NCBI GenBank assembly: GCA_028554795.2
Contig: CM068838.1
Span: 89,209,944 to 89,273,943, forward strand
Direction: 5' to 3'
DNA: 64,000 bases
DNA from: Sinohyriopsis cumingii
Taxonomy: Eukaryota > Mollusca > Bivalvia > Unionida > Unionidae
The position numbers were made by a program, and so were the translations under genes. Each line of letters begins with the position of its first letter. Position 1 is the stretch's first letter. The notes below the pieces were generated by a model. That model worked only from the letters and a program-made list of their open reading frames with translations. It was not told the origin of the DNA and made no database searches. Of the stretch, positions 48,489 through 64,000 are shown piece after piece.

Positions 48489-48580
48489 AATAATGCTATC
48501 ATACAAGTTAGAAAATTTTTAATTCGCATTCTCCGTAGAGTACGAATTAAAAATTCTCTAATCTGTATGATAGCATTATT
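48489..48580. repeat. Imperfect palindrome with 38-bp arms
   Basis: The arm 48,489-48,526 (AATAATGCTATCATAC...AATTCG) pairs with 48,543-48,580 (CGAATTAAAAATTCTC...GCATTATT) across a 16-bp spacer, with about five mismatches. It is transcribable as a long hairpin and may be a small foldback element. It lies just outside the presumed Polinton left end. Confidence 0.85.
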
Positions 48581-48619
48581 TGTATTATACACATATATAT
48601 ACAAGTAGTAAGGTGGGAC

Positions 48620-48868
48620 GGTCTAGGGACTAGGGGAGTTCCATGTTAAAAAGGCAATATCTACTCTGGGGACTACGTAATTTAACATGGGAAGCAATAT
48701 CCACTCTGGGGACTATATAAATTTAACATGGGAAAAAAAGGCATCCACTCTGGGGACAAGGGAATTTAACATGGGAGAAAAGAAATATCCATTCTAGGGA
48801 CAAAGGCAATTGAAACATAGGAGAAAAAATATCCATTCTAGGGACAAAGGCAATTGAACATGGGACTT
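48620..48868. repeat. Subterminal about 45-bp minisatellite, about 6 copies
   Basis: Units contain CACTCTGGGGACAAGG or CATTCTAGGGACAAAGG, then CAATTTAACATGGGA and an A-rich link. It lies between the presumed element end and the first gene, where Polintons often have repeated subterminal sequence. It is followed by an A/T-only tract to 48,905. Confidence 0.85.
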
Positions 48869-48914
48869 TTTAAAAAAAAAATTAAAAAAATAAAAAATAA
48901 AAAAGGGGTAGGCA

Positions 48915-48964
48915 ATGGAAAGTCATTCTCTTTTCGAGAGACGTGGGTGGCCCTGAAAAGGGCC
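48915..48964 (-). terminator. Histone-type 3' stem-loop plus purine-rich downstream element (minus strand)
   Basis: On the minus strand GGCCCTTTTCAGGGCC (48,949-48,964) forms a 6-bp stem with a TTTC loop. It is preceded by CCAAA and followed by ACCCA (48,944-48,948). About 8 nt later comes TCTCGAAAAGAGA (48,925-48,937), which resembles the histone downstream element bound by U7 snRNA. These match the metazoan replication-dependent histone 3' end. It lies 24 nt after the stop of the 76-aa minus-strand gene. Confidence 0.88.
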
Positions 48965-48987
48965 TTTGGATTTTTGTTAATATGCCC

Positions 48988-49218
48988 TTAACATAAAGGG
49001 CATCTGCGGCATCTTCTTGTCCTCAAGCTGCGTCTTAGTGTAGGGCCATAAATCAGAGTCCTCTTGAGGCAACCTTGTCTTTCCACATAAACTCTTCGTA
49101 TCCACAGACTGGTGTCTGACTTGTGGACAACGGTCCACTTGGATCGGACATACATGAGCATGTCCGTCCTAAACATCATTGAAGACACAAGGGTGGATGA
49201 TTCGACTGTGGTCCACAT
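48988..49218 (-). CDS. Small basic, cysteine-containing protein with histone-type 3' end
   Basis: This 76-aa frame is intact. Its minus-strand TATA box (TATAAATA, 49,263-49,270) lies about 45 nt before the ATG at 49,218, and a histone-type stem-loop follows the stop. Residues 1-45 are mixed hydrophobic. The last 25 are strongly basic and end in a short Cys-rich tail (RRCRRCPLC). I found no family. A loose resemblance of the segment VYVERQGCLKRTLIYG to the histone H4 C-terminus was noted but is too weak to use. It forms a divergent pair with the gene at 49,438 across a 219-bp shared promoter. A small DNA-binding or virion core protein would fit the composition, but that is a guess. Confidence 0.55.
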   Translation of the reverse strand: MWTTVESSTLVSSMMFRTDMLMYVRSKWTVVHKSDTSLWIRRVYVERQGCLKRTLIYGPTLRRSLRTRRCRRCPLC

Positions 49219-49437
49219 CTTGAGGCGACGAGAACAGGTGAATCAATGCAGTGAACTGCGCTTATTTATAGGTAGAGGAAGGATTGAAACGGATTGAGTT
49301 CATTGACCAATCCAAACACGCGTTACAAAATTCAGTCAGCCCGCATCCAATCCGAAGAGAGCAGTCTGTGACGTCACGTGGTCTATATAGATTCGCTAGC
49401 GCCTGTGTGCAGTCAATCTATGCGACAGTGATTCAAC
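49219..49437. promoter_or_regulatory. Divergent promoter with TATA, CCAAT, CRE and E-box motifs
   Basis: The minus-strand TATA lies at 49,263-49,270 and the plus-strand TATATAG at 49,384-49,390. Between them are CCAAT motifs (about 49,308 and 49,345), TGACGTCA (49,369-49,376, a perfect CRE palindrome) and an overlapping CACGTG E-box (49,375-49,380). The compact divergent layout with CCAAT boxes resembles paired histone-gene promoters. Confidence 0.7.
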
Positions 49438-50007
49438 ATGACGGAAACTTAGAAAACGATTCATTGGGGTGCACCAGCAGTGGAGACCGCCCAAGGGAAC
49501 CCCGACTTACTTTCAGAAGAGGTAAATTGGGATTTTGTGGATTTTCTTACCTCGCAAGAATTTGTTCCGGAACCTTCGTCACCTTCATGACCGCAAGTGG
49601 AGAATTTTAGACAGAGACAGAAAGAAGAATTGGAGAAATTTATACAACGACAAAAGGAAGCGGAACAAGCTTTTCTCCTACAGCAACAGCAGCAAGAAGA
49701 AGAGGTAAGAAAAAAACAACAAGAAGAAGTAGCAGCAAAGAAACAAGAGGGTGAAAATCAAACGGTCACGGTACTGTTGGACATTTTAGCGGAGTTAAGA
49801 AGTCTGAAACAAATGTATCAGACTTCTTTATTACGACCGAAGAGAATACGACCTTCCCGAGCTAAACACGTCAACCCTGTGACTAAGCCTACCGTACCAC
49901 CCTTAGTGATTTCAACCCAATCATCATCATCATCATCAACAGTACGCAGTCCAGAAGTAGGCCTTGGCCGTGGCAAAGGCTTAAGGCAGTTAAAGTTGAT
50001 TGCTTAA
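49438..50007 (+). pseudogene. Q/E-rich coiled-coil protein with histone-type 3' end, two in-frame stops
   Basis: The start is the ATG at 49,438, which lies 54 nt after a TATA box. One frame of 190 codons runs to TAA at 50,005, broken by TAG (49,450-49,452, codon 5) and TGA (49,588-49,590, codon 51). The first 50 codons are acidic. Codons 55-105 are a Gln/Glu/Lys-rich predicted coiled coil (repeats of RQKE and QQQQEEE). Then comes a short hydrophobic helix (VTVLLDILAELRSLKQMY) and a basic Ser/Pro tail ending GRGKGLRQLKLIA. I recognise no family. A capsid scaffold or core protein is possible. A histone-type stem-loop follows the stop by 26 nt. The region after codon 51 is open, so an N-terminally shortened product is conceivable. 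Confidence 0.6.
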
Positions 50008-50032
50008 ACTCACCCCTACACCAAAAACCAAA

Positions 50033-50071
50033 GGCCCTTTTCAGGGCCACCCACTTCTCTCGAAAAGAGAT
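50033..50071 (+). terminator. Histone-type 3' stem-loop plus purine-rich downstream element (plus strand)
   Basis: GGCCCTTTTCAGGGCC (50,033-50,048) is flanked by CCAAA and ACCCA (50,049-50,053), followed by CGAAAAGAGA at 50,061-50,070. It fits the consensus GGYYYTHTHARRRCC for the stem-loop bound by SLBP. It is nearly the inverse of 48,915-48,970, with about five differences over 57 bp, so both ends of the gene pair carry the same signal. Confidence 0.9.
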
Positions 50072-50206
50072 ACACTTTCAATTGCCAATAACTCAAAAAT
50101 CAACAAAAAAAAACTATTTTACCCCTATAGTACGTGTATATGAGTGCGTGAGTGTACGTTCTTATTTAAAATCAAAACTCAAAGACACTTACCTTTTTAT
50201 AGCTAA

Positions 50207-50212
50207 TTTATT
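50207..50212 (-). terminator. Poly(A) signal of the zinc-knuckle gene
   Basis: AATAAA on the minus strand, about 75 nt past the stop of the gene at 50,287-50,742. This gene uses an ordinary poly(A) signal, unlike its two neighbours. Confidence 0.6.
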
Positions 50213-50286
50213 CTTTTATCAATAGTTACAATCCAATTTACAATTCACAGCAGAGCACTTTAAAAAGTACATTCACTTATTCTGTC

Positions 50287-50742
50287 TCACTTTTTAGTCT
50301 CTCTCTGTTTTTTAAATTTCTTCACCGTCACAGTCTTTTCCTCCTCTTCCTCCTCACTTTCTTCCCTTCTTCTTCTTTTCTTCTCCTGTTTCTTTTTCTT
50401 CACATGTCTACTATCTTCCTCCTCTTCCTCCTCTGAAGAAGAATCCCTCTCTTCTGAAGAAGAATCCCTCTTGTCTTCTGACTCCTCTTGTTTCTTTTTT
50501 GGGCAATCTGGAGACCAATGTCCTTTTTCTTGACAATAATAACAGGTATCTTGACTTTTGTCTCTTTTAACCCCTGTTTTTCCTTTTTGACGGTCTGGAC
50601 AATCTGAAGACCAATGCCCTTTCTTCTGACAGATATAGCAAGTATCTTCACTTTTATCTCGAAAAGAAGGAGAGTAGTCCGTCGGCTGGTCTGAAGAAAA
50701 TTTTCTAATGACCCCTCGCAACGCTCTGATGAAACGTTCCAT
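50287..50742 (-). CDS. Two-zinc-knuckle (CCHC) protein with acidic/basic tail
   Basis: Intact 151-aa frame. Two retroviral-type zinc knuckles of the form CX2CX4HX4C are at residues 35-48 (CYICQKKGHWSSDC) and 67-80 (CYYCQEKGHWSPDC). They are joined by a basic linker, which fits single-stranded nucleic acid binding. Residues 85-112 are Ser/Glu-rich (DSSSEE repeats), 113-128 are Lys/Arg-rich, then a Glu run and a basic end follow. The minus-strand TATA (TATATAAAG, 50,811-50,819) lies about 70 nt before the ATG. The gene is divergent from the polymerase gene. Repeated SSEEERDSSSEE suggests slippage growth of the acidic tail. A nucleocapsid-like or replication-accessory role is inferred. Confidence 0.8.
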   Translation of the reverse strand: MERFIRALRGVIRKFSSDQPTDYSPSFRDKSEDTCYICQKKGHWSSDCPDRQKGKTGVKRDKSQDTCYYCQEKGHWSPDCPKKKQEESEDKRDSSSEERDSSSEEEEEEDSRHVKKKKQEKKRRRREESEEEEEEKTVTVKKFKKQRETKK

Positions 50743-50804
50743 CTGGGTAGTCTCTTCCGTTGTGCTCGGTTAGAGAGTGAAATGAATAGTGAAAGGACAA
50801 GACA

Positions 50805-50845
50805 CATACCCTTTATATACGCTGGTCTGCTAGGACTATAAATTA
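50805..50845. promoter_or_regulatory. Divergent TATA boxes for the zinc-knuckle and polymerase genes
   Basis: TATATAAAG on the minus strand at 50,811-50,819 and TATAAAT on the plus strand at 50,837-50,843 lie only about 18 bp apart. Each lies 54-70 nt from its ATG, so the two pre-initiation complexes would nearly touch. Confidence 0.7.
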
Positions 50846-50890
50846 GTCCATGGTGTTTAAACTTGAGTCATTTGACGTTTTTCACCCAAG

Positions 50891-53800
50891 ATGATACGAT
50901 CCTATTCATTCGAGAAGAAAGAAGAAGAAGAAAGTAAGAGGCAGAAACGTGATCTATCGCCTCGTACCAGGGCTGAAGTCTTGGCACAAATTCATGCCAG
51001 TGATTTTGAAGAGGACATGAGTGAACCAGAATCCGAACCCTCTAAACAAAGTTCACCACCCCTGGTTAACCCTGAAAAGTACTATTCCATTCGAGAGACG
51101 GAAAAGCGCTCCTCTAGAAAATTTAGAACCACGGCTTACAAATACACGGTGAAGTTTAAAGATTTCAAGGCCGAAGTACCGTTAGAGAAAGCAGAAGGGT
51201 TCATCACCGGGGTGTGGGATTCTTTGCTCACCACACTCAAGCGACAATGTCAACCCAAAGAAGACGATCGCTTGAGACTTTCCATACAACACGACGGTTT
51301 GAAATCCCTTGTTTGGATCGAGTTTAGCACCCCTGCAGAATTGACTGCTTCCAAAGTCATGGACAAGATTTAACACGTACAACAATCCAATGACCAGTTT
51401 GACATCACCGATGGAAAAGCCACACTCGACATGACCCACGTCTCTCCTCCTCAAGGGACCGGACAACGCAATAAGGTGTTATTGGTGAACGACCTTCGCA
51501 TCACCAAAACGAGCCTCGTCCAAATTCACAACCCTCAAGACCAGATGTGTTTAGCCAGGGCTATCGTGGTGGGACGAACCTATGCCAACAAGAACGACAC
51601 GGTAGAATGGAAAAGAGCCTGGGAGAACATTCGAAAATCGAACCGAGCCAAACAACGAAGTGAAGCAGAACTCCTGTTACAACAAGCTGACCTGTCCAAA
51701 GACACACCCTGCGGTATTCCTGAAATGCAAACATTGCAAGATGTCCTAGCTCCATTCTACACCTTGAAAGTGCACCCTCAAGAAGTGCGCGGGCCTCTGT
51801 TGTTTCGAGGCCAAGACTTTAAGGATGGAAAATACATTCACCTTTATCATCACGATGACCATTTCGATACCATTACCACTATCACCGGATTCCTGGGATA
51901 CAAATATTACTGTGAGAAATGTGACTATGGTTATAATAATCGAGAGCAACACAAACATTGCGGATGGAAATGCTCAGGATGTTTGGCCTCTCCACCCTGT
52001 CTGAGCGAAGTACAAGAAAGAGTACACTGTCCTGCTTGTCTGCGCACGTTTGTCAGCCCTGCCTGTTACCAACAACATCTGAAGACGCAAGGTTCACAGC
52101 AGAAATGTGCTTGTCAGCTGCTGAGATTGTGCCCTACGTGTGGACAAGGCCTACGTACCAATAATGCCAAGACACACGTATGTTCAGGAAAGAAAAAATG
52201 TCACATTTGTCACCACATCGTGGACTTGGAACACGAATGCTACGTGCAAAAATACCAGCCCCCACCAGAGAAAGAGGACGGTTACAAGAAGAAAGGCAAT
52301 TTCATCTTTTTTGATTTCGAATGCATGCAAGAGACCGGTAATAACATTCCTAATTTCTGCGTGGCTCATCGAGCGTGCGAGAAGTGCATTCAAGAACCTA
52401 TCTTCAGTCATTGCCCTCACTGCAGCAAGATTCCTGGAGGACGTGAAAAAATCTTTCGAGGACCGAACACGCTAGCCGATTTTGCCCAATGGGTTTTAGA
52501 CCCCATCGACGAGACGTGGAGCCAAGAGGACATCGAACGTTACGGAGATTGTCATCGCCATGCCACAGTGATGGCTCACAATTTCTCCGGATACGATGGA
52601 CAGTTTCTTTTGAGGTACTATACGGAACATGGCACCGAACGTCCTAAAGTCACTTTGAACGGAGCCAAAATCATTTTCATGCAAGTGGGACAAGTACAGT
52701 TTAAAGATTAGATGAGCTATTTGGCCATGCCTTTGAGTCGAATGCTAAAACATTTGGAATGACAGAAATGGCTAAAGGGTACTTTCCACACTTTTTCAAT
52801 ACGGAAGCCAAACAACACGCCGTTCTACCCCATTTACCTGAGGCTCATTATTACGACCCCGACAACATGCGTACCGAACAACGAGAAGCTTTCTACGCTT
52901 GGTACCAGGCTCACGCCTCGGACCCTTTCGACTTTCAGGAAGAAATGCTAAAGTATTGTCGTTCCGACGTGGACATTTTACGGCGTTGCTGTGGAAAATT
53001 TCGAGAACTGTTCATGGAACACGGAGGGGTCGATCCTTTGAAAGAAGCTTGCACCATTGCCAAAGCGTTTTCCTTAGTGTACCGCCAACGATTCATGCCT
53101 GAAAACACCGTGGCTGTCATCAGTCCTCAAACGACCCACTATGTCAAACGTCAATACTCGGTCAAAGCCCTACGCTGGTTACATTTCTTGTGCGACAAGG
53201 AAGACAAATGGATTCAGCATGCCCGCAACGGAGGAGGCGAAAAGACCATCGGAACGCATTCGGTCGATGGCTGAGACTTAGAAAACCCCAAGATCGTGTA
53301 CGAGTTTAACGGTTGCTTATTTCACGGATGTCCCGTCTGTTACCCTGACCGCGACACCAAAAATCAGTTTTTACAACGAACCATGGAAGACTTGTACCAG
53401 GACACTTGTCAGCGACGCCTAAAGTTAGAACAGGAAGGATACCAAGTGGTGGAAATGTGGCAACACGAGTACGATCACCGTATGAAAACCGATCCCGAGT
53501 TTAAACGCCTCGTGGAATGTTACCAGTTCATGGACCCGCTGAACCCGAGGGATAGTTTGTACGGAGGAAGGACCAATGCCACCTGTTTGCTGTACCAAGC
53601 CGACGAAGAGAAAGGAGAAGAAATCAAATACTTGGACGTGTGTTCGCTGTATCCTTGCGTGTGCAAATATTGTCACTTTCCTAAAGGGCACCCGCAATTG
53701 CTGGCGGAACACATCGACCTGGAAAACATTCGATAATACGAAGGTATGATCAAGTGCAAAGTCCTGCCTCCCACGGACTTGTACCATCCCGTGCTACCTC

Positions 53801-54963
53801 ACCATTGCCAAGGCAAACTGATGTTTCCTTTGTGCCGTACTTGTGCCGAAACGTGCAACCAAGATCAGCCTTGTCAGCACACCCAGGAAGAACGTGCCTT
53901 GACGGGGACGTGGGTTAGCGTGGAATTGTTCAAAGCTCTGGACATGGGATACCAACTGTTAGAAGTGTACGAAATTTGCCACTTTCCCAAGACACAACAA
54001 TACCACAAGGGTGACCCCAGTCAGAAAGGCATTTTCGCAGACTACGTGGATGCCTTTTTGAAACTGAAGCAAGAAGCCAGCGGGTATCCTTCCTGGTGTC
54101 ACACTCCCGAAGACCAAATAAAATTCAAAGAGAAATACTATGAACAAGAAGGCATCACTTTAGATCACATTGAGAAAAACGAAGGCAGGCGATCGTTTGC
54201 CAAAGTGATGTTAAATTGCTTGTGGGGTAAAATGGCACAACGATCGTCTTTACCCAAGACGGAATATTTGACAGAACCTTCCCGCTACTTCCAGATGATT
54301 CACGACAAAACCAAATACATGAAACACGTGGACGTCGTTCGCGAGGATTTGATCTTGGTCAATTACGAAGAAGATCTGGACTTTGTACAAGACGACCCCT
54401 TTGGAAATGTCATCATTGCGGCTTACGTGACAGCCCATGCTCGCTTAAAATTGTACGAAGCTTTAGAACTGTTAGGGGAACGCGTCCTGTACTTTGACAC
54501 TAACAGTTGCATTTACATCCATCACCCGAGTCAACAGCACCCTGACATCGAAGGAGACCGTTTAGGAGCCTGGACAGACGAGCATCCCGACGACAAGATT
54601 CTAAGTTTCGTCAGTGGCGGTCCCAAAAATTACGGTTACGAATACCGGGACAAACAAGGAGAAGTGCACACGCAGTGCAAAGTGAAAGGATTGACTCTGA
54701 ATTATCGTACCAGTCGAGTGGTCAACTTTGGGGTACTGAAAGAAGCCTTGCAGTCTGGAAAAGATCAACACTTTAAAGTGACCACCTATCAACCGAACAA
54801 GATTGTACGTTTACCCACTCACCACATCGTCAGTCGACCCTTGGAAAAAGTCTATCAAATCGTGTACCAGAAGCGAGTGCGACTTCCCAATCATTTCACC
54901 TTACCGTATGGACACGTCGGTATTGGTCTGTATATAAAAAGGAACCCTAGGCAAGATCGATAG
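50891..54963 (+). pseudogene. polB: Protein-primed family B DNA polymerase, multiple lesions
   Basis: About 1,357 codons, the size of Polinton polymerases. The N-terminal region is charged, followed by a conserved pre-exonuclease region and a Cys/His-rich zinc-binding section (about 51,900-52,260). ExoI is FFDFECMQ (52,310), ExoII AHNFSGYDGQF (52,573) and ExoIII YCRSDVDIL (52,954). A Cys/His-containing insert follows (YEFNGCLFHGCPVCY, 53,300), reminiscent of the endonuclease-like insert in related polymerases; that comparison is inferred. PolA is YLDVCSLYP (53,629), PolB KVMLNCLWGK (54,202) and PolC YFDTNSCIYI (54,490). PolC has Asn (codon 54,502) where family B enzymes have the second catalytic Asp. 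Breaks are TAA 51,371, TAG 52,709, a frameshift within 52,712-52,760, TGA 53,272 and TAA 53,734. Replication by this copy is therefore lost. The TATA is at 50,837. Confidence 0.93.
54931..54940 (+). promoter_or_regulatory. TATA box of the BIR gene inside the polymerase 3' end
   Basis: TATATAAAAA lies 65 nt before the ATG at 54,996 and within the last codons of the polymerase frame, so coding and promoter functions overlap. Confidence 0.7.
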
Positions 54964-54995
54964 TTCATTGTGACTACCAAGACCGAGCGAACAAG

Positions 54996-55631
54996 ATGAA
55001 TACTTTCAGAGAAACACAAAACAAGTTTAGACAGGCACAATTCAAGTGTGGGGCTTCGGAAGTGGAATGCGATTGTGAGCCTTGCGATGGGTACGATGCT
55101 GTACGTTGTGACCTTAGCGATGCCGTAAAGCATCATGGGAACTTTGTTCTCACTACCCCTATCATGGAAAGGGATGCTGTGCGTGTCAAACCTGAGGGAT
55201 GCGAAAGCGATGCCGCTCGTCCTCTTGGACATTTTACTGGGTTTAGTTTTAAAGGGGAATGTTCACCTTCACGTCTACCCCCCTACGAATGTCATCCAGC
55301 TCTGAGCAAACTCCTGTCCATGTCACCCAACCCTCATCGAAACGAACCTGTGAAAGACGAATATTCGTTTCCTGTGCGTTTGTCGGAATACTGCGACTTT
55401 GAAAATCGTCTTCAATGGTTCAAAGGAAAATGGCCTTAGTATCTGGGAGGACCGACCCCCGAAGAATTAGCCAGAGCCGGATTGTTCTACTTGGGCGAAG
55501 GAGATAAAGTCAAGTGCTTCAGTTGCGGTGTGTCACTTCACCACTGGGAACCGCAAGATTCGGCCTACGTAGAACATGCTCGATGGTCACCGAATTGTCA
55601 TTACTTACCTTTAGTGGGACCGAGACATTGA
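54996..55631 (+). pseudogene. IAP-like protein with one BIR domain, one in-frame stop
   Basis: One frame of 211 sense codons from ATG 54,996 to TGA 55,629, interrupted by TAG at 55,437-55,439 (codon 148), inside the BIR. The BIR spans about codons 138-205. Zinc ligands are Cys174, Cys177, His194 and Cys201 in exact CX2CX16HX6C spacing. The usual core (ELARAGLFYLGEGDKVKCF, LHHWEPQDS, EHARWSPNC) is clear. The N-terminal 130 residues are Cys-containing and unrecognised, and no RING is present. BIR proteins bind caspases or other apoptosis factors, and baculoviruses and other large DNA viruses carry them. Here the gene opens an accessory block between polymerase and ATPase. The stop removes the zinc-binding part, so the product would lack the fold. 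Confidence 0.88.
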
Positions 55632-55639
55632 AGTAACTT

Positions 55640-56056
55640 ACCATGTCGTTGACGAAGAAGTAACCAGATTGGTTAGGAGTCAAATGTTGGACATCACCGA
55701 GACCAGAATTTAAACTTCATTTCAAAAACGATATTGAATAATTACCTAAAGAACTGCAAGAGAAGATTTACAAAGAAGTTTGGCAGGGGTTTGCCAGAGT
55801 GAAATTTCAATGGGTCACTGTAGAACTTTTGTGCCGAGAAATTCACAAGAGGAAAGTGAAAAAAGTCAACCAGTGTGTTAGATTTCTTTGGGTCAAGTGT
55901 GCAGTCGTCCTATTATATCACTCTAGACCGTTTACATCAAAAGAGTTCAGTGAGATTCTTGGACGTTACCCTGAATGACAGTGATCAGAAATTACTTACT
56001 ATGAAGATTACTTTTGCTCTAGAAGAAGATTGTGAATTGTACGAACTGATCTATTC
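55640..56056 (+). pseudogene. Degenerate first copy of the LPxEL-motif gene family
   Basis: At 55,740-55,800 the plus strand encodes LPKELQEKIYKEVWQGF. This matches the motif of the next two copies (LPVELRERIYREL), but reading frames here are broken by several stops and shifts. The rest of the segment (to about 56,050) contains an acidic LEEDCELYELIY stretch like the IEEDELKDY of copy 3. It is the most decayed of three tandem copies. Confidence 0.5.
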
Positions 56057-56291
56057 ATGGATACTTTGCTAGAGAACATTCGTGCTTTGCCTGTGGAGTT
56101 GAGAGAACGCATTTACCGAGAACTGATCAAAATACAAGTGAAAAGCAAATGCAAAGTTATTCATCCGTTTTTAAATTATGCTCTGTTCCAAAGTATAAGA
56201 AGACTGATTATGAGTGGATATTACATCAGCCACAAAATTAAACGTGGCTATTGGCCACCACCCAAGGATTCCAAAAACAGTGTATATACTT
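56057..56291 (+). pseudogene. Truncated second copy of the LPxEL-motif gene family
   Basis: ATG 56,057 opens a frame starting with DTLLENIRALPVELRERIYR, nearly identical for about 100 nt to the start of the third copy at 56,292. It then diverges and runs into that copy after 235 bp, so only the N-terminal third remains. LPxELRxxIYxxL resembles the first helix of F-box-like or SOCS-type adaptor motifs; this is a short-motif inference. Confidence 0.5.
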
Positions 56292-56783
56292 ATGGATACT
56301 TTACAAGAGAACATTTTGGGCTTGCCTGTGGAGTTGAGAGAACGCATTTACCGAGAGCTGGTCAAAATACAAGTTAAACGTAAAGAACAGTTGCATCCGT
56401 CACGTCACCAGATCTTTAACCACTGGTACCTGAATGGTATAAGAGGACTGATTCTTCAGAAATGGTTTCAGTGGTCAGACCTTGTTGAACACTTTCAGTT
56501 AGTGAATGAACTAAACGTTCGTAATTTTGGTTACTTCGAGATTCACCTACTGCACCGTATTGAGGAAGACGAGTTAAAGGATTACCAACATATTTTACGT
56601 GAAATCTGCTTAGCGGAAGACGAAACATCTAGACAAACTCTGACGTTTCGGTTACAGTATGCAAGATTTAGATTCCCTACTGGAGAACGAAGATGTCTAG
56701 TTAGAAATCACCTTTATTGCTTCCGAAACAAAGAGACTATAAAATCAGGCTGCCATGCCACGGATTATGTCACATGTTATTGA
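56292..56783 (+). CDS. LPxEL-motif (F-box-like?) protein, third copy
   Basis: Intact frame of 163 aa from ATG 56,292 to TGA 56,781. Residues 3-21 carry LQENILGLPVELRERIYR. The rest is helical and charged with no known domain, containing LILQKWFQWSDLVEHF and HLLHRIEEDELKDYQHI. If the motif is a true F-box-like adaptor the protein would contact an SKP1/Cullin-type ligase, which viruses use to redirect host degradation. The motif is short, and this assignment is tentative. The end overlaps the next frame by 29 bp. A weak TATA (TATATAC, 56,283-56,289) lies immediately upstream, too close to serve this ATG. Confidence 0.5.
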   Translation: MDTLQENILGLPVELRERIYRELVKIQVKRKEQLHPSRHQIFNHWYLNGIRGLILQKWFQWSDLVEHFQLVNELNVRNFGYFEIHLLHRIEEDELKDYQHILREICLAEDETSRQTLTFRLQYARFRFPTGERRCLVRNHLYCFRNKETIKSGCHATDYVTCY

Positions 56784-57476
56784 ACAGATTCCGTGGAAGG
56801 AACTCAATGACCATATTCAAACCGTGGATCATTACCATCGATTATTACAAGAACTGTATCCATTCAATTTGGGTCGACAAGTGGTGTGTGTCTTAGTAAC
56901 TTGTTTTCTAGCACTTCGTTTACCAGCCGATTCCTTGTGGACTCTTTACGATCAGTACTTACCACACCTCCATGGCCTTAAATGGTCACGAAAGACTCCT
57001 TTTGCTCAAAGCCTTGCGGTTTCATCTGGATACTTCTCGACCTCTACGGGAAAAAAATATTCGTCAACTTTTAGCTACCCAAGACGTGTATGACGATGTG
57101 TGTGTAGCTTGTGACTTACACCCCCATTGGACAGATGTCCGTGCCTGGAAAGAATGGGATTTTGAGGCTTGGACCCAAGAAGTGGCCCAGTATGCACGAG
57201 AGTTGTTCAAGGAAAAAAGTTACTTTTCAACCTGTGTTAGTGACGGTGCCAGAAGAACCCGTCACCCAGGACAGGACTGTCGAGGACAGGCCTGAAAGAC
57301 CCTTTCGGGAGGACACTTGTGTGACCTTACCCCCTATAGAACTGGTCAGAACTTTACCCAAAACATGTTGTACAGACACTTGTTTTTATTCCACGTTAAT
57401 GGTTATCATGTGCCTTTTATCCTTGTACTTAAGCCTTTGGCTTTTATGTATTTTTGTCTTTCGTATTCATGTTTAA
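56755..57476 (+). pseudogene. Unrecognised protein with C-terminal membrane anchor, apparently frameshifted
   Basis: Three overlapping frames succeed one another: 56,755-57,093, 56,972-57,295 and 57,111-57,476. Each is shifted by +1, so I read them as one gene with two 1-nt lesions; overlapping genes are the alternative. The first part includes ELYPFNLGRQVVCVLVTCF, loosely like a BH1 segment. The middle is helical and Trp-rich (VRAWKEWDFEAWTQEVAQY). The last part is proline/acid-rich, then a single strong membrane segment (LMVIMCLLSLYLSLWLLCIF) and a short basic end, the pattern of tail-anchored proteins. A poly(A) signal follows at 57,484. A Bcl-2-like role next to a BIR gene would be attractive but is weakly supported. 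Confidence 0.45.
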
Positions 57477-57483
57477 AACATTC

Positions 57484-57489
57484 AATAAA
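57484..57489 (+). terminator. Poly(A) signal AATAAA
   Basis: Located 8 nt after the stop of the tail-anchored frame and 19 nt before the TATA box of the ATPase gene. It gives a very compact gene boundary. Confidence 0.65.
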
Positions 57490-57507
57490 CGTGTTCTGAA
57501 AAAAAGG

Positions 57508-57515
57508 TATATAAA
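57508..57515 (+). promoter_or_regulatory. TATA box of the ATPase gene
   Basis: TATATAAA lies 54 nt before the ATG at 57,562. Confidence 0.75.
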
Positions 57516-57561
57516 CTCTCGTCTTGTTTGTTTTCGTGTCACAAGTGACATTCCTAACACT

Positions 57562-58290
57562 ATGGCTACCTCTGCTGTCTCTGCTCCCTCTTCCTCTACT
57601 GTCAAAGTCATCGACGAACACTTAGATCGTGCCAGTTGGGAGGCTTTGTATCTTCGCCATCCCTTTAACATGCTCATTGCTGGACCTAGCGGTTCAGGCA
57701 AAACCGAATTCGTCAAACGTTTGATCGAACAGAAACATCATTTGATCGATCGGCCACCTCAACGGATCGTGTGGTGTTACAAAGAGTGGCAATCGGCGTA
57801 CAGCCTCTTGCGAGAAAGTCAAGGCGATTCCATCGTGTTTGTGGAAGGCATTCCTAAAGAAGACGACGGCATCGTCTCTGACTCCTGTCAAACCCATTTG
57901 GTCATTTTCGACGACATGTTAGGAGAAGACGAAGAAGAAATTAAACTGTGGTTCACGCGCAAAGGGCATCACCGTAATGCCAGTGTCGTTTACATCACCC
58001 AAAATTTGTTTCAACAAAGTAAAGCCCATCGCACCATCAGTCTCAATGCGCATTACGTGGTCTTGTTTAAAAGCCCTCGAGATAAATCGCAAGTGCAAGT
58101 CTTAGCCAAACAGTTAGGGACACCTTGGCTGACTCAGGCGTACGACGATGCCACTCAAACTCCACACGCCTATTTACTCGTCGATTTGAAACCTACGACC
58201 CCCGAGGATTTGCGATTTCGTATCCACTTGTTTCACCACTGGTGCCAAGACGGAGGGCCTATCCTGTACACATCTCCGTCCTCGACTTAA
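57562..58290 (+). CDS. A32/FtsK-HerA-type genome-packaging ATPase
   Basis: Intact 242-aa frame. Walker A is GPSGSGKT (residues 41-48). Walker B is HLVIFDDML with acidic residues 117-118. The downstream TQNLF (146-150) fits the sensor-type motif of this family. In Polintons and related dsDNA viruses this ATPase pumps the genome into preformed capsids. I chose ATG 57,562 because it lies 54 nt after the TATA box and just before a typical unstructured start (Ala/Ser/Thr-rich); the frame is open further upstream but lacks a better start. The gene shows no lesion, in contrast to the polymerase and integrase. Confidence 0.93.
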   Translation: MATSAVSAPSSSTVKVIDEHLDRASWEALYLRHPFNMLIAGPSGSGKTEFVKRLIEQKHHLIDRPPQRIVWCYKEWQSAYSLLRESQGDSIVFVEGIPKEDDGIVSDSCQTHLVIFDDMLGEDEEEIKLWFTRKGHHRNASVVYITQNLFQQSKAHRTISLNAHYVVLFKSPRDKSQVQVLAKQLGTPWLTQAYDDATQTPHAYLLVDLKPTTPEDLRFRIHLFHHWCQDGGPILYTSPSST

Positions 58291-58311
58291 TTTCACTGCA
58301 CAAAAAAAATC

Positions 58312-58319
58312 TATAAAAA
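58312..58319 (+). promoter_or_regulatory. TATA box of the basic-protein gene
   Basis: TATAAAAA lies 45 nt before the ATG at 58,357 and 22 nt after the ATPase stop. Confidence 0.72.
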
Positions 58320-58356
58320 CCTCAGACCCTTTTCGTCTGTCTCACACAGTTTGAAC

Positions 58357-59303
58357 ATGACGTCCCTTCAGTCGCATCTTCCCGTCAAATTGATTCGTGC
58401 CTTGTATGGCATCAGTAGAGAAAAAAATCCACAAACACGAGCTCGTGTCTTAGAAGCTAGTCTCAAAGAAGTCTTACGATGGTTCACGGTGACGGCACGT
58501 CAATTACTCCAAGGGATCATTCAGATTCCTCATCAAACCAAACGCTTTTTTGATCGAAACAAAGTCGCTTTGACCCAACTGGCCGATCCCCGCATCGACA
58601 CTCAAACCAAAAAACAAATCATTTTGAAACCTGGAGGGAGCGGTACTCTAGGAGGGGTCATCATTCGCTCTCTCTCTTAAGATGGGATCCTAATGCCCCC
58701 AAACTTCTCCCCAAGAAAAAAGTCAAACGAAGCTCCAAGAAGAAGAAAAAGACCAGGTCCCCAAGGAGAACTTCTCCAGTGGCGGGACCCTCCTCTTACC
58801 AGACACCACCCCGGAAAAAGAAAAGAAGCCCCCAGAAAAAGAAACAGAGAAAAAGTCCCCAGAAAAAGAAAAGTCCATAGAAGAAAACTACTCGCAAGAG
58901 AGGCACTTCGGCCAGGACGCAACCTTACACTCGCAAACCACGACTTGCCACGGCGGTGACTGCGTCTCTGGCAGACTCACGTTCATCCACTTCTCCGTTG
59001 ATGACACCAAGAACTGAAGAGTACTTGGAGACGTTGATCACACCAAGAACTTCTCCGTTGATGACCCCAAGAACTTCCCCAGTGGCAGGACCCTCCAATT
59101 TAGTGGCAGTGGCTGCTGCTCACAAAGTACCTTCTCCCAAAATCAAAGTCCAAGAAAGATCGTGCATGTTACAAAGTTTACTGGATTTGTCCAAGCAAGA
59201 ACTGGCTCGATTTAGTCCGTTGCGTACCCCTGCACGACGTGTCATGCCTGTCCTGAAGTTGATACGACGTAAAGACAATCAGTGGCGACGCGTTCCAGTA
59301 TAA
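58357..59303 (+). pseudogene. Conserved small-domain protein with long Lys/Pro-rich basic tail, frameshifted
   Basis: The first 107 codons (58,357-58,680) are open and helical, ending in KKQIILKPGGSGTLGGVII, a glycine motif recurrent in Polinton small proteins. At a CTCTCTCTCT run (58,668-58,677) the frame stops. A different frame continues as a very basic Lys/Arg/Ser/Pro region (KKKVKRSSKKKKK, SPQKKK repeats) with TAG at 58,878-58,880. It then runs through Thr/Pro repeats (SPLMTPRT, TSPVAGPS) to TAA at 59,301. I read it as one gene with a slippage frameshift and one stop; two genes are possible. The basic repeats resemble histone H1/protamine-like tails and would suit a DNA-condensing core protein. 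That role is inferred. Confidence 0.6.
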
Positions 59304-59307
59304 AAAA
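59299..59307 (+). promoter_or_regulatory. TATA box of the 133-aa gene
   Basis: TATAAAAAA overlaps the stop codon of the preceding gene and lies 55 nt before ATG 59,354. Confidence 0.72.
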
Positions 59308-59353
59308 GGCCTGTGACCAAGTCGGGGTATCAGTGTTATTGGTGCTCCTGAAG

Positions 59354-59755
59354 ATGTCACCCTCCAGAAAACGTCCCTCTTCTAAAACCCAAGGAAAGAA
59401 AAGGAAAGGACTGCCACCACGTTTAGTCAAACATGGGGACATGTTATCTGTCCTGTCCAAAGCTTCTCCACCCCTACGAAAAAAACTCATTCAATCGGTC
59501 TCCAAAGAGGTCATCGATACTGTATGCGAATGTTGTTTGAACGTCTTGAAAGGCACGATCCCTTTGTCCAAACACCAGAAACAATGCTTAGGCAAACATC
59601 GTCACGTTCTTCGCCAAATGGTTCAAAAGAAAATTCGCCTTTGTCAAAACAAGAAGATGTTGGTCCAACGTGGAGGTATTTTACCCCTCTTGTTAGGCCC
59701 CTTGCTGAAAGGAGTCTTGGGAACCATGTTGGGAGGACTGGTGGGAGCAAGATAA
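59354..59755 (+). CDS. Conserved Polinton small protein with hydrophobic C-terminus
   Basis: Intact 133-aa frame. The N-terminal 30 residues are basic. The helical core contains ECCLNVLKGTIPLSKHQKQC and a basic helix (HVLRQMVQKKIRLCQNKK). It ends with MLVQRGGILPLLLGPLLKGV and a Gly/Leu-rich hydrophobic tail. I recognise this pattern as a small protein that travels with Polinton capsid genes; its function is not known to me. The hydrophobic tail suggests membrane activity or packing inside the virion. The ATG was chosen from the TATA spacing (55 nt). Confidence 0.72.
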   Translation: MSPSRKRPSSKTQGKKRKGLPPRLVKHGDMLSVLSKASPPLRKKLIQSVSKEVIDTVCECCLNVLKGTIPLSKHQKQCLGKHRHVLRQMVQKKIRLCQNKKMLVQRGGILPLLLGPLLKGVLGTMLGGLVGAR

Positions 59756-59759
59756 AAAG
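59752..59759 (+). promoter_or_regulatory. Possible weak TATA box
   Basis: ATAAAAAG lies 53 nt before ATG 59,805, the same spacing as the stronger boxes. Confidence 0.45.
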
Positions 59760-59804
59760 GGCCTTGGAAGTCCCAAGATCTCAGAATCGACCCCTGACAA
59801 CCCG

Positions 59805-60408
59805 ATGTAAGGACGAAAACTAGCTTTAGTGCCTTACAAACGATGGATGGAATACTATCGTTGGCAAGAACAACGCACCCCACATTTACCACCCAATCCC
59901 AATTTGAGCGAGATGTCCCAGTTACAACACGAATTGCAGTCCTTGATGGATCGCCAAGATTTGTCCGAAACAGAAAAAAGTACGGTCAACTCTTGCAACG
60001 ACTGCAACTCTTTCACCAAAAAGCCTCAGACGAAACAGCCTTACCCACTCTGAAAGATTTTAAGACCTTGATGAAAAGTCCAGCACCATTACCAGTACCA
60101 CCACCGCTACCAGTGACCAAGACAGAAAAAGGAGAAGAAGAGGAAGGGTTTCAAACTCCACCAGAAAAAGTACGCAAGTTAACAACACCACCTACCTCCA
60201 GAATTGGATGGATTAAAAAGATGATGACCACCCCTTCTTCATCACAAGAGAAAAAGAAAGTGAAGACAGAAGTGAAACAAGAAAAAATATCCCGTTCTGA
60301 CATCCTCCTCCTCGACACCTATTGCTGGTCGCACCCGCAAAGCATTGCAATCCAAGAAAGTACCCCAAGAGAAAAAGAGTAGCATCTTCCAAGAGAGGGT
60401 GCCTTATT
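59805..60408 (+). pseudogene. Conserved Polinton protein with LVPYxxW start, broken
   Basis: ATG 59,805 is followed at once by TAA (59,808-59,810). The frame then runs ALVPYKRWMEYYRWQEQ and a helical section. Within the A-run at 59,971-59,977 it shifts to the frame ending at 60,382. That part has KYGQLLQRLQLFHQKAS, a proline-rich linker (PAPLPVPPPLPV), an acidic patch and a basic tail. A further shift near 60,290 would allow the last part to end at TAA 60,406 with a more basic C-terminus. I recognise the LVPYxxW start followed by a Lys-Tyr-containing helix as a recurrent Polinton protein. I do not know its role. Confidence 0.6.
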
Positions 60409-60427
60409 AACACACACACACACACAA
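60409..60427. repeat. Short (CA)n tract directly before the integrase ATG
   Basis: About eight CA units fill the leader just upstream of ATG 60,428, where other genes of the element have an ordinary leader. Confidence 0.85.
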
Positions 60428-61548
60428 ATGGAAAAAGTCTTAGCCAGCATTTACTACGATCCGTCCCATCCTGCAGGTTACGCAGGAGTTCAAAAATTGT
60501 ATCGTGCTGCCAGAACGCGACTGAAAAATCTCCGTTTACCTCAAGTGCAACGATGGTTACAAGAACAAGCTACCTACACTTCACACAAACCCATTCGACG
60601 CAAGTTTTCCAGAAGTCGCACCCAAGTGGAAGGCATCGATCATCAATGGCAAGTCGATTTAGCCGATGTCTCCCATTTGGCCAGCTACAATCGCGGCTAC
60701 AAATATTTGTTTTGTGTCATCGACGTCTTTTCCAAATATGCCTGGGTCGTACCCTTGACTGCCAAATCGAGCAGCGGGTTAGTGCAAGCTCTGCAACGAG
60801 TGTTGAAACAAAGCGGTCGTCACCCTTTTCGATGGCAAACGGACAAAGGCACCGAATTTCTGAACCAAGCTTTCCAAAAAGAATTAAAGAAACGTGACAT
60901 TCATTTTTTTACCACCGAGAATCCCGAAACCAAAGCCAGCATCGTGGAACGTTTTCAACGCACTTTGAAAGAACGCATGTGGTAATATTTTACGCATCAC
61001 CACACTCTGAAGTACATCGACATTTTACCGCACCTGGTGCAAGCGTACAACCAAACTTACCATCGAAGCATCAAACGTGCCCCGCAAGACGTGACTCCCG
61101 AGAACGAAGTGTTAGTGTTTGAGCACCTATTTGGTACGTCCCCAACGAGGGCTGTCCCCAAGAAAAGTGGAGAGTTGGTCGTAGGAGATTGGGTGCGCAT
61201 TGGAAAACCAAACGCACTTTCGACAAAGGTTACTTATCTAACTGGTTATCTAACTGGACGACCGAATTGTTTCGTGTCACTGGACGAGTGCATGGCCGTC
61301 ATCCTGCCGTCTATAAATTGGAAGACATGAACGGAGAAGTGCTCAAAGGAACGTTTTATTTGCCCGAGTTACAACGTGTGACCAAAAAAGAAGACGACGT
61401 GTACGACATCGAAAGCATTCTCGAACGCAGAACCCGTAAAGTGGGTAAACGACGTGTCAAAGAAGTCAAAGTACGTTGGAAAGGATATCCACCCAGTTTT
61501 GATTCTTGGATCGACGCTTCGCAAGTCATCGACTATAAAAAGAAGTGA
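60428..61548 (+). pseudogene. int: Retroviral-type integrase with C-terminal chromodomain, broken
   Basis: The catalytic core holds Asp77 (HQWQVDLADVS), Asp139 (WQTDKGTEFLNQAF) and Glu174 (TKASIVERFQRTLKERM), with 34 residues between the second Asp and the Glu. An N-terminal helical region precedes it. The stop TAA at 60,983-60,985 falls right after the core. The same frame then continues (HHHTLKYIDILPHLVQAYN) to about 61,200. There a frameshift precedes the last frame, which holds an SH3-like segment, a 12-bp direct duplication (61,234-61,257) and a chromodomain (YDIESILERRTRK...VRWKGYPPSFDSW, 61,402-61,500). The chromodomain would direct insertion to methylated-histone chromatin in an intact element. 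This type of integrase is standard in Polintons. Confidence 0.93.
61534..61541 (+). promoter_or_regulatory. TATA box of the membrane-protein gene
   Basis: TATAAAAA overlaps the last integrase codons and lies 44 nt before ATG 61,578. Confidence 0.7.
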
Positions 61549-61577
61549 CCATCATGCTCTTTCACACAGACGCAGCT

Positions 61578-61967
61578 ATGTCGACCACTCCTTCACCTAG
61601 TTCTTCTGTGCAAGATTTACAAAAACAACCCTTGTGGGTGTGGTGTGGAGAACGTGTGCCTAAAACGCAAATCGTCTTTTTCTGCCAAATCTTCGTGGTG
61701 TATTGTGTCATCGGGGCAGCCATTGCCAATTTGAGTTTGCAACAAGGAGACAAACAATTGTGGACCATTTTATTAAGCAGTTGCATCGGTTATCTGCTTC
61801 CCAATCCCTTCCTGAAATTCTCCTCGAACGGGAACTACGGGAACCTTGTGTCCAGTGCCAGTGCCAGTCACCACTCCAATAACAACAACAACAACCCCAT
61901 TTTGGGCGGAGACACGCCTCTGACGTCCAGTAACCCCTCGGACAGCCACAGAACTCTGGAATTATGA
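61578..61967 (+). CDS. Two-transmembrane-segment Polinton protein
   Basis: Intact 129-aa frame. A Ser/Thr-rich start precedes PLWVWCGERVPKTQIVF and two membrane segments: FFCQIFVVYCVIGAAIANL (about residues 38-56) and LWTILLSSCIGYLLP (about 65-79). An Asn/Ser-rich polar tail follows. I recognise the pattern of a short two-TM protein with LSSCxGYLLPNP next to capsid genes in Polinton-like elements. A role in virion membrane or exit is inferred. I chose ATG 61,578 over the in-frame ATG at 61,554 because of its TATA spacing. Its TGA overlaps the next ATG by four bases (ATGA). Confidence 0.75.
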   Translation: MSTTPSPSSSVQDLQKQPLWVWCGERVPKTQIVFFCQIFVVYCVIGAAIANLSLQQGDKQLWTILLSSCIGYLLPNPFLKFSSNGNYGNLVSSASASHHSNNNNNNPILGGDTPLTSSNPSDSHRTLEL

Positions 61968-62898
61968 GTCACCAAAACCAATTTTACTTAACCTTACCCA
62001 GTGACAGTTCCATGGAGGTGTTTCCCAACAACACGTTGTGCTGTTACACGGCCAAATTAACTCAGGCCATCCCATTAGATCACGAAGCCCATTGGGAAGT
62101 GGCTTTAGTAGAAATCATTCACCCAACCCAAGTCCTCAATGTCCTTCCCAAACAAAATTTTTTTACGGTGGAAGTTCATGACGATTCAGTGCAACAGTAC
62201 TTGAATACCCATGTCAAATATGACAAGAAACCCCTAGCACAAAAAATCAAAAGTGGACCACCTATCACTTGTTCATTCCCCCAGGCTATTAGTTTAGTGG
62301 TCAACATTTGGTGAGCACCATAGCCTCCAGATTTAATGTCGTGTTTCTGAAAGCTTTGGAGAGTGTCAAAAAAAGTGTCACCCTGGAGTACCATACAATA
62401 GCTCGTCGCTTCCTCATGAAATTTCCTGAAGGGGGTAAAATCATGTCCATTTTATTTTGTCCTGAATTGTTTGCCATGTTGGGCGGGGACATGGAGCTGA
62501 GAAAGATAGTAGAACAAAAACCCGAATCAGCAGTCAATTACGACAACGATTCTTTTGCCAAGTTTTTTAGTGCCCCGGTAGAACTGAACCAAGGACTGAA
62601 TTTGATATTTGTGTACTCCGATGTGGTGGAGTACAACGTGGTGGGACACACCTCCGTACCGTTACTGCGTGTCATTCCTTTCAAAGTGGATTCTGCCACG
62701 GTCGCTGACGAGGAAGGTGGAAACACTTACCACGTCCACCGCGAATTTGTCCATCCTCACTATTTACCTGTCAGCAAGTCGTATTTGGACACGGTCAACA
62801 TTGCTATAAAAGGAGATCTGGGACACAATATTCCATTCACCAAAGGAAAAGTCACGGTGAAACTCCATTTTCGAAAACAGTTCTCTCACGACTCGTAA
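61964..62898 (+). pseudogene. Candidate minor capsid (penton-like) protein, broken
   Basis: The first frame (61,964-62,314) starts QNQFYLTLPSDSSMEVFPNN and contains AHWEVALVEIIHPTQ, a beta-rich pattern seen in Polinton minor capsid proteins. A frameshift near 62,250-62,275 leads to a frame with TAG at 62,290-62,292, which then stays open to TAA 62,896. The second part includes VVEYNVVGHTSVPLLRVIPF and a C-terminal beta-rich segment. The total of about 310 codons fits the family. The position directly before a pVI-like gene and the major capsid gene supports a virion role. Single jelly-roll pentons sit at capsid vertices. The assignment rests on position and motif memory. Confidence 0.65.
62805..62812 (+). 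promoter_or_regulatory. Possible TATA box inside the minor capsid gene
   Basis: TATAAAAG lies 97 nt before ATG 62,902, a longer gap than elsewhere in the element. Confidence 0.45.
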
Positions 62899-62901
62899 GT
62901 C

Positions 62902-63327
62902 ATGTATTCAGTGTACCGAGGCGTTGTTCGACAGCGAGGACACGGTTTAGGAGATATGTTAAAATCGGCCTTTCGTTCGGTGGCCCCGGTGTTGAAACCG
63001 ATGGTGACACGCGGATTGCACGCCTTGAAAGATGCGGCACTGACGCAAGGCAAAGAATTTCTCCAAAATGTCATCATCGACAAACAAAACCCTAAAGAAG
63101 CCTTCATGAGGGCAGGCAAAAATGTCTTGCTGCAAACGGGCAAAGACCTTTTGGGCCGACGAGAAACACCTATAAATGCCCTGCACGCTACCGAGTCAGG
63201 CATTCAGCAAGGACAAGGCAAAAAGAGACGACGAAGAAAACACCCTTTCACCAGACTTCACACGTCTAAAGCTAGAAAGACAAAGAAAAGAAGAACCGTT
63301 CGAGACTTAGACGTTTTCGATTACTGA
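62902..63327 (+). CDS. pVI-like glycine-motif basic virion protein
   Basis: Intact 141-aa frame that starts 3 nt after the preceding stop. The N-terminus YRGVVRQRGHGLGDMLKSAF is followed by an amphipathic helix and Lys/Ala-rich helices (GKEFLQNVIIDKQNPKEAF). The C-terminus is highly basic (KKRRRRKHPF, KARKTKKRRT). A GxGxG start followed by an FR...P pattern and an amphipathic helix recurs in proteins next to Polinton major capsid genes. The layout recalls adenovirus minor proteins that condense DNA or disrupt membranes. Exact equivalence is unproven. Confidence 0.7.
   Translation: MYSVYRGVVRQRGHGLGDMLKSAFRSVAPVLKPMVTRGLHALKDAALTQGKEFLQNVIIDKQNPKEAFMRAGKNVLLQTGKDLLGRRETPINALHATESGIQQGQGKKRRRRKHPFTRLHTSKARKTKKRRTVRDLDVFDY
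63171..63177 (+). promoter_or_regulatory. Possible TATA box for the major capsid gene
   Basis: TATAAAT lies inside the pVI-like gene, 171 nt before the capsid ATG. The gap is longer than in the rest of the element, so it is a weak candidate. Confidence 0.3.
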
Positions 63328-63341
63328 AAAGCAGAAAAAAA

Positions 63342-63696
63342 ATGATGCACCGAGAGTCCTGTGCTTGTTCCAAGTCAGAACTGGAACTGTTTGCCATGCC
63401 CCCCCCCCCCACCATGATGACCATGCAAGAATCCCAGTGGGTGGAATTTCATCCCGTCTCCTCTTTGACGAATTCCGCTCCCATCGAGTTTGAAATCAAA
63501 GGACAGCCCGAAGACTACATCGATCTGAATAGCAGTTACCTGTACTTGAAAGTGAAAGTGATCGAACCACCCAACGTTTTGTGACCATTATGCTTATCTT
63601 TTGTCTCAAGCTAGGAAACGTAGTGTCCATCAATGGCCTAATGACTTCCAACAGTGGAAATCACAATTTCATTCACAACGTTGTCAGCCCTGTTTA
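63342..63696 (+). pseudogene. Major capsid protein, N-terminal remnant only
   Basis: ATG 63,342 opens an 80-codon frame with a conserved start (CACSKSELELFAMPP, SQWVEFHPVSSL, PIEFEIKGQPEDYIDL). I recognise it as the double-jelly-roll major capsid family of Polintons, which includes nematode proteins annotated as transposon-derived F54H12.2. TGA at 63,582 ends the frame. A shifted frame keeps VVSINGLMTSNSG (about 63,621-63,660), which fits the next strand of the same domain, and then stops near 63,694. Only about 110 of the usual several hundred residues remain, directly followed by AT-rich 3'-UTR-like sequence. The core of the gene has been deleted. A poly-C tract (63,402-63,412) lies within the frame. 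Confidence 0.82.
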
Positions 63697-63858
63697 AAGT
63701 AGAGTGTGAATTGAAAAAAATGTTTGTGATTTGAAAAAAAATGTTTGATGTTATATTGTTGAATTATTATTAAAAATGTTAGAGTTATTCGTTAGTGTTA
63801 AGTGATTTTGAATAAAAAATGTGTTTTGAAAAAAAAATGCCTTTGTCTTTTGTTTGGC
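63697..63858 (+). terminator. AT-rich 3' flank with poly(A) signal
   Basis: AATAAA at 63,812-63,817, set in a repetitive tract of TTTGAAAAAAAATG-type units (63,710-63,840). It looks like the original 3' UTR of the capsid gene, brought close to the 5' part by deletion. Confidence 0.5.
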
Positions 63859-63864
63859 TATAAG
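63859..63864 (+). promoter_or_regulatory. TATA-like box of the last gene
   Basis: TATAAG lies 46 nt before ATG 63,905, matching the element's usual spacing. Confidence 0.45.
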
Positions 63865-63904
63865 AATGTTGATTCATGCTCTTTGATTTCTTACTATCCC
63901 TCTC

Positions 63905-64000
63905 ATGACACTCATTGAACGGTTCGGCTCTAAAACCGTGGAAGGATGTTTTCCTTCACGTCCGCGCTTTGACTTTAAGAACCGGGGTAGTTTCCAGTCT
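63905..64000 (+). CDS. Start of a further element gene, cut by the window end
   Basis: ATG 63,905 opens a frame that stays open for 32 codons to the window edge (TLIERFGSKTVEGCF, then a basic stretch). I do not recognise it. The missing Polinton gene expected in this part of the element is the adenain-like protease, but the visible residues neither support nor exclude that. Confidence 0.4.
   Translation, partial: MTLIERFGSKTVEGCFPSRPRFDFKNRGSFQS

Follow-up and report, generated by a model that had tools for sequence, protein, structure and literature searches.

Histone-type mRNA 3′ ends on five accessory genes of a Polinton family in the bivalve Sinohyriopsis cumingii, and their putative coupling to S phase

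Introduction

To our knowledge, the 3′ end of animal histone mRNAs has been described as unique to those mRNAs. In the available text of PMC9756948 and PMC2781718, histone mRNAs are replication-coupled and lack a poly(A) tail; SLBP binds the stem-loop, U7 pairs with the purine element, and the transcript is cleaved between the two. The available text of PMC2781718 (2009) adds that SLBP had never been implicated in the direct regulation of non-histone genes. In the portion of PMC12220804 at hand, six matches to the histone 3′UTR stem-loop are reported among polinton-like virus and virophage genomes, without discussion there.

Among the matches listed in the open-licence literature, we found no description of Polinton or adintovirus genes with histone 3′ ends, and such genes were likewise undescribed among the matches listed there for the histone stem-loop, SLBP or the downstream element in mobile elements and viruses. 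A first-pass annotation of the DNA studied here was aware of no account of histone 3′ ends on Polinton genes. That assessment stands for the genes, among the matches listed, but has to be tempered by the six stem-loops counted in the available part of PMC12220804.

Results

A broken Polinton with a divergent gene pair at its left end

The window, the whole stretch of 64,000 nucleotides that was analysed (C15:89209944-89273943 of a 2.90-Gb assembly), ends within a broken Polinton of 17,964 bp (~18.0 kb, C15:89258547-89276510), the right end of which lies in the locus directly to the right of the window (L031) and extends to L031:2567 (Table 1). The PolB, integrase and ATPase genes, the terminal inverted repeats and the target duplication mark the element, judged from its sequence, as a Polinton. 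Both ends start with AGTAGTAAGG and are flanked on each side by TATACA; this 6-bp duplication sits in TA-rich sequence and for that reason counts as weaker evidence. The left terminal repeat is 81% identical to the inverted right one over 378 columns. The match to PolB (PF03175), a presumably protein-primed polymerase, spans 53746-54960 of the window.

Table 1. Positions of features in the window
Feature	Position	Strand	Remarks
Polinton, left 15.4 kb	48604..64000		continues past the window to L031:2567
Left terminal inverted repeat	48604..48973		~370 bp; includes gene A stem-loop and purine element
Histone 3′ stem-loop of gene A	48924..48969	-	Rfam RF00032 (Histone3), 36.4 bits, E 5.9e-7; GAAAAG 13 nt past stem
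Gene A	48991..49218	-	76 aa; model of four strands; tail basic; without match in Pfam
Putative divergent promoter region	49219..49437		two CCAAT boxes, TGACGTC site, TATA-like sites
Gene B	49438..50007	+	coiled coil with basic stretches; in-frame stops in window copy
Histone 3′ stem-loop of gene B	50028..50072	+	Rfam RF00032 (Histone3), 38.7 bits, E 8.2e-8; GAAAAG 13 nt past stem
Zinc-knuckle gene	50287..50742	-	AATAAA 74 nt past stop; without histone stem-loop
PolB gene, broken pieces	50891..54963	+	PF03175 on last piece
A32-like packaging ATPase	57469..58290	+	PF04665
Integrase core and chromodomain, in pieces	60428..61545	+	PF00665, PF00385
40-nt motif upstream of gene X	63944..63983	+	recurs upstream of C and D, L031

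Several other features of the element were recorded. After PolB, an inhibitor-of-apoptosis BIR domain is encoded at 55440-55628 on the forward strand (PF00653, E 1e-19). A 101-nt direct repeat (56049-56149 and 56284-56384, 85% identical) encodes two related N-termini that appear F-box-like by eye, and the open reading frame at 56292-56780 had no Pfam match. Nor was there an informative Pfam match for the frame at 62899-63324, which lies beside frames taken by eye for capsid genes. The frame at 63381-64033, crossing from the window into L031, resembles by eye the start of a capsid protein and stops after ~70 residues, with gene X starting shortly afterwards; the window copy is thus probably defective here too, besides PolB and gene B. 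A hairpin (48489-48580) whose 44-nt arms are 89% complementary lies immediately outside the element on its left side; it matched a microRNA model weakly, with a score that fell far short of the cut-off.

Gene A has two database relatives (70 and 74% identity), and the main piece of gene B has 20, which are 61-95% identical across the aligned part. The B relative P0013 and the A relative P0021 each come from a single 1455-nt contig with the same sources, and for this reason they probably lie together. In two further database proteins, P0014 and P0022, the stop has been lost and the frame continues into the 3′ region; the sequence of P0014 fits the stem-loop, with at least one side of the sixth pair altered, and in P0022 the outermost stem pair and the purine core are lost. 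No relatives were found in viral_contigs with two stem-loop patterns, the ATPase, a gene B alignment and PolB, or in genome_contigs with the gene B alignment, and in metagenomes the lists of gene B and zinc-knuckle relatives had no equally sized contig in common.

Structural models of modest confidence show A as four strands (pLDDT 63) and P0001, which is closely related to B, as a single long helix (pLDDT 67), and at that modest confidence neither protein is predicted to be histone-like. Fold searches of two libraries with gene A returned nothing at E 0.001 or better, and nothing informative was matched in sequence searches of PHROGs and PDB. The CCAAT boxes, the TGACGTC site and the TATA-like sites between the two genes are elements that we take to be promoter motifs.

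Genes A and B end in complete histone-type signals

Both 3′ ends exceed the curated gathering score of the Histone3 model, which is 34, and both cover its full 46 positions. CCAAA, ACCCA and GAAAAGAGA are present at each, and a search for the 16-mer GGCCCTTTTCAGGGCC that allowed up to three mismatches found it at two places in the window, each an exact copy, where shuffles predict 0.08. The stop-to-stem distance, read from the sequence of the window copy, is 23 nt for A and 25 nt for B. Between 48000 and 64000 of the window, there was no further Histone3 match at E values up to 5. The first-pass annotation had proposed histone-type stem-loops, CCAAA and ACCCA flanks and purine elements for these two genes, and had held that neither protein is a recognisable histone; the Rfam scores bear out the former, and the latter agrees with the lack of any Pfam histone match for the A, B, X, C or D proteins. 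Its description of the neighbouring zinc-knuckle gene, as having an ordinary AATAAA, was likewise correct.

An inverted repeat of 67 nt comprises the two 3′ ends (48911-48977 and 50020-50086, 60/67 identities), and none of the seven differences falls inside the stem-loop or TCTCTCGAAAAGAGA. We considered whether this repeat marks the ends of a small transposon and ruled this out, as the element ends at 48604 and at L031:2567 and the cassettes sit behind genes. The purine element is able to fold into a small hairpin of its own. An AATAAA lies within 250 nt of only one of the 12 other ORF ends checked, that of the zinc-knuckle gene, so its absence near A and B proves little; since most other ORF ends also lack one, we dropped this absence as support for histone-type ends.

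Three more genes in the right arm carry the signal

Three genes follow one another in tandem in the right arm, in L031: X with 120 aa, C with 98 aa, and D, which is broken in the window element. Histone3 matches were located at L031:424 for X (26.2 bits, E 4.7e-4), at L031:1228 for C (31.0 bits, E 8e-6) and at L031:2242 for D (37.5 bits). Only D exceeds the gathering score, although the stem-loops of X and C, below it, are complete. All five element genes share a 6-bp stem and a 4-nt loop between A-rich and ACCCA flanks. The flanks deviate in X, where the 5′ side is C-rich, and in D, which reads ACTCA. The signal had been proposed to be specific to the A/B pair, and this has to be given up in view of X, C and D at the opposite end. 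Of the five cassettes, those of A and D are part of the terminal repeats and those of B, X and C are not.

The 40-nt motif that precedes X, C and D, at 63944-63983 of the window and within L031:749-1601, has a TATA-like end, with partial copies at L031:749 and 1497, and looks like a common promoter. Stop-to-stem distances are 32 nt for X and 39 nt for C in L031, and 15-21 nt for D in 8 of 13 loci; several copies have a disrupted C or D, with no ORF ending in the 40 nt ahead of the stem in 5/13 D and 6/11 C cassettes. A match to C was found in 10 of 12 right-end loci and was missing from two (L004 and L020). In 9 of the 10 loci listed, the outer stem pair of C is A-U rather than G-C. In the window element, this paired change from G-C to A-U, which preserves the stem, affects X as well as C, and it may be one inherited event. 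The A protein ends in a basic stretch, as do those of X, C and D in intact copies; all five proteins are small, and a role in DNA packing or replication is possible.

The signal is kept in a large family of copies

In a Histone3 search of the 2.90-Gb assembly, 75 of 589,472 candidates were scored, each of which exceeded the cut-off, and 30 of these 75 were taken for reading, each as a locus of only 3 kb. Both A and B are encoded at 18 of the 30, of which, within their 3 kb each, 5 show the zinc-knuckle gene and 4 the start of PolB. The remaining 12 all match terminal DNA of the element in the window, and two of them (L004, L022) match its right arm. A core histone is encoded at none of the 30 loci, and 4 of the 30 have the zinc-knuckle gene as well as PolB behind the pair. 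This linkage, together with the lack of core histones, rules out that the left end is a fragment of a host histone cluster outside the element, and it supports the earlier assignment of the A/B pair to the Polinton.

Gene B, searched as P0001, has matches in at least 150 places in the genome, 150 having been scored of 32,070 candidates at 97-100% identity. Intact copies are thus present in the same genome, with 147 of the 150 scored matches free of stops. From at least 150 near-identical matches, the Polinton family is therefore large and, by identity, recent. The 30 best-scoring of the 150 copies were picked by gene B protein alone; these copies are closely related and not independent of one another. 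The stem-loop and purine element are kept in 27/30 B ends; the stem-loop is kept in 28/29 A ends, and together with the purine element in 27/29. The absence of a stem-loop from related copies had been named in advance as grounds for refuting the histone-type reading, and these counts show the opposite.

At the B ends, the final 60 nt of coding sequence had a mean identity of 0.987 and the 3′UTR ahead of the stem one of 0.906, compared with 0.992 for the stem-loop and 1.0 for GAAAAG; the corresponding values for the A ends were 0.909, 0.938, 0.996 and 0.994. Most A ends of this set have AGCC, not ACCC, after the stem. In a wider set, partly chosen by the stem-loop, the exact 16-mer was present in 38/46 B ends and 35/37 A ends.

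Base pairing was evaluated in 24 chosen cassettes (5 from this element, 5 from the host and the rest from fetched copies), which collapsed to 18 distinct ones. In these, 99.1% of pair cells were formed. Two pairs were changed on both sides, one of them through the fifth stem-loop of the host, compared with none in six slid versions; 30 of 500 shuffles reached two such pairs, and none of 500 reached the seven such cells observed.

Comparison with host histone genes

Host histone genes occur in tandem repeats of ~8.3 kb on C14 (C14:13.1 Mb) and on many small contigs. The repeat used for comparison (L062) encodes H3, H4, H2B and H2A, all on one strand, and contains five Histone3 matches of 35.0-39.4 bits, the fifth of which presumably belongs to linker histone H1. 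GAAAAG lies at +13 from the stem in all five element genes (5/5) and in host H3, H4 and H2B, and at +14 in host H2A and behind the fifth host stem-loop; the chance of this spacing is ~4e-4 per gene. The stop-to-stem distance of the four host core histones is 27-35 nt. Within this repeat, the A/B pair region is most similar to the 3′ end of H2B, at 85% over 53 nt. Promoter similarity was not found between the two, and only the 3′ ends are alike.

Outside the stem-loop, the A and B cassettes agree at 31/35 positions, whereas A or B agrees with any host histone at no more than 21. X and C agree at 30 of 35, compared with at most 24 for a host histone. D agrees with A or B at 26 and with H3 at 24/35. 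These sequences fit best with the cassette having been acquired once and having then spread inside the element, although D alone would not show it.

A search of the assembly for host U7 found none among 65 scored of 801,960 candidates. A pattern search gave 17 matches, against 26 in a control, and the 6 inspected had no strong 3′ hairpin.

Discussion

We regard it as likely that this Polinton family gives A, B, X, C and D histone-type 3′ ends, and that host SLBP and U7 would time these genes to S phase. The signals are present in host-like form and at host-like spacing, and they are kept in copies picked by protein. They strongly imply that the five transcripts would be processed by SLBP and U7, and we infer, on sound grounds, that the genes would be coupled to S phase, as the first-pass annotation had suggested for the A/B pair. 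Each of the five accessory genes has a complete 3′ end of this type, made up of a stem-loop, a cleavage flank resembling ACCCA, and a purine element positioned for pairing with host U7. Host SLBP and U7 would cleave the transcripts after ACCCA and leave them without a poly(A) tail, and the transcripts would build up in S phase and then decay. The accessory proteins of the element would thereby be timed to host DNA replication, whereas the core genes in the window are without the signal. We lean slightly towards the broader statement that a mobile element would run a five-gene S-phase regulon, with members at both of its termini, the mRNAs of which host SLBP and U7 would make and destroy alongside histone mRNAs.

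The similarity to histone genes might instead go back to a divergently arranged H2A/H2B pair that the element captured complete with promoter and 3′ ends and whose coding parts were replaced, as the first-pass annotation had suggested for the regulatory shell of a histone gene pair. The arrangement of A and B around a 219-bp region with CCAAT boxes and TATA-like sites would fit such an origin, as would the H2B 3′ end being the best host match of the cassette at 85% over 53 nt. However, the four core genes of the one host repeat compared are in tandem on one strand without promoter similarity to the element, which resembles it in the 3′ ends only; neither A nor B is predicted to be histone-like, and the right-end genes are not divergent. 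The A/B and X/C cassettes are also closer to each other outside the stem-loop than to host histones, with the caveat that D resembles H3 almost as much as it resembles A or B. We consider capture improbable, and the proposal of a captured shell is not upheld.

A somewhat less improbable, still doubtful, alternative is that the cassette was copied once from a host histone 3′ end, spread in the element and serves another job there, for example in transcription termination or as a terminal-repeat signal in replication or packaging. The position of the A and D cassettes inside the terminal repeats and the ability of the purine element to fold as a second hairpin would be consistent with this, but the repeats do not include B, X and C, the cassettes sit behind genes in sense orientation at a histone-like distance (D being broken in the window element), and the U7-type spacing is kept exactly. 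That the stem-loops arose by chance or are unrelated palindromes, a thought encouraged by the shortness of histone-like stems, is hardly credible next to matches at E 8e-8 and 6e-7, three more in one right arm, exact purine spacing and conservation in many copies, and we regard this reading as refuted.

If our preferred reading of SLBP/U7-processed accessory genes is true, no earlier set of genes other than histone genes would have been shown to use this animal mRNA end. With five such genes, a numerous Polinton family would be a natural test of what this end does alone, and would offer a concrete route for an integrated virus to follow the host cell cycle. With many intact gene B copies in one genome, the predicted non-polyadenylated S-phase transcripts can be checked in the RNA of the animal.

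The element shares with metazoan replication-dependent histone genes the stem-loop, its flanks, the purine element, the spacing and a stop distance as short as in the host, and differs in that its mRNAs encode no recognisable histone and its genes reside in a mobile element. With Polinton/Maverick elements and adintoviruses it has in common PolB, an rve integrase with chromodomain, an A32-like ATPase, terminal inverted repeats and a 6-bp duplication; the difference lies in the five accessory genes with histone-type 3′ ends. The polinton-like virus and virophage genomes in the available text of PMC12220804 are similar in that related elements have Rfam matches to the histone 3′UTR stem-loop, but in that text the matches are only counted, without a tie to genes or host signals, and none is in its cryptophyte elements. 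The histoid genes of adomaviruses, as described in the accessible part of PMC11071296, are another instance of animal DNA viruses with histone-related material, and one adomavirus there, recovered from clam data, combines them with virion proteins like those of adintoviruses. In those viruses, as far as that part describes them, it is the protein that is histone-like, whereas in the Polinton described here it is only the mRNA end.
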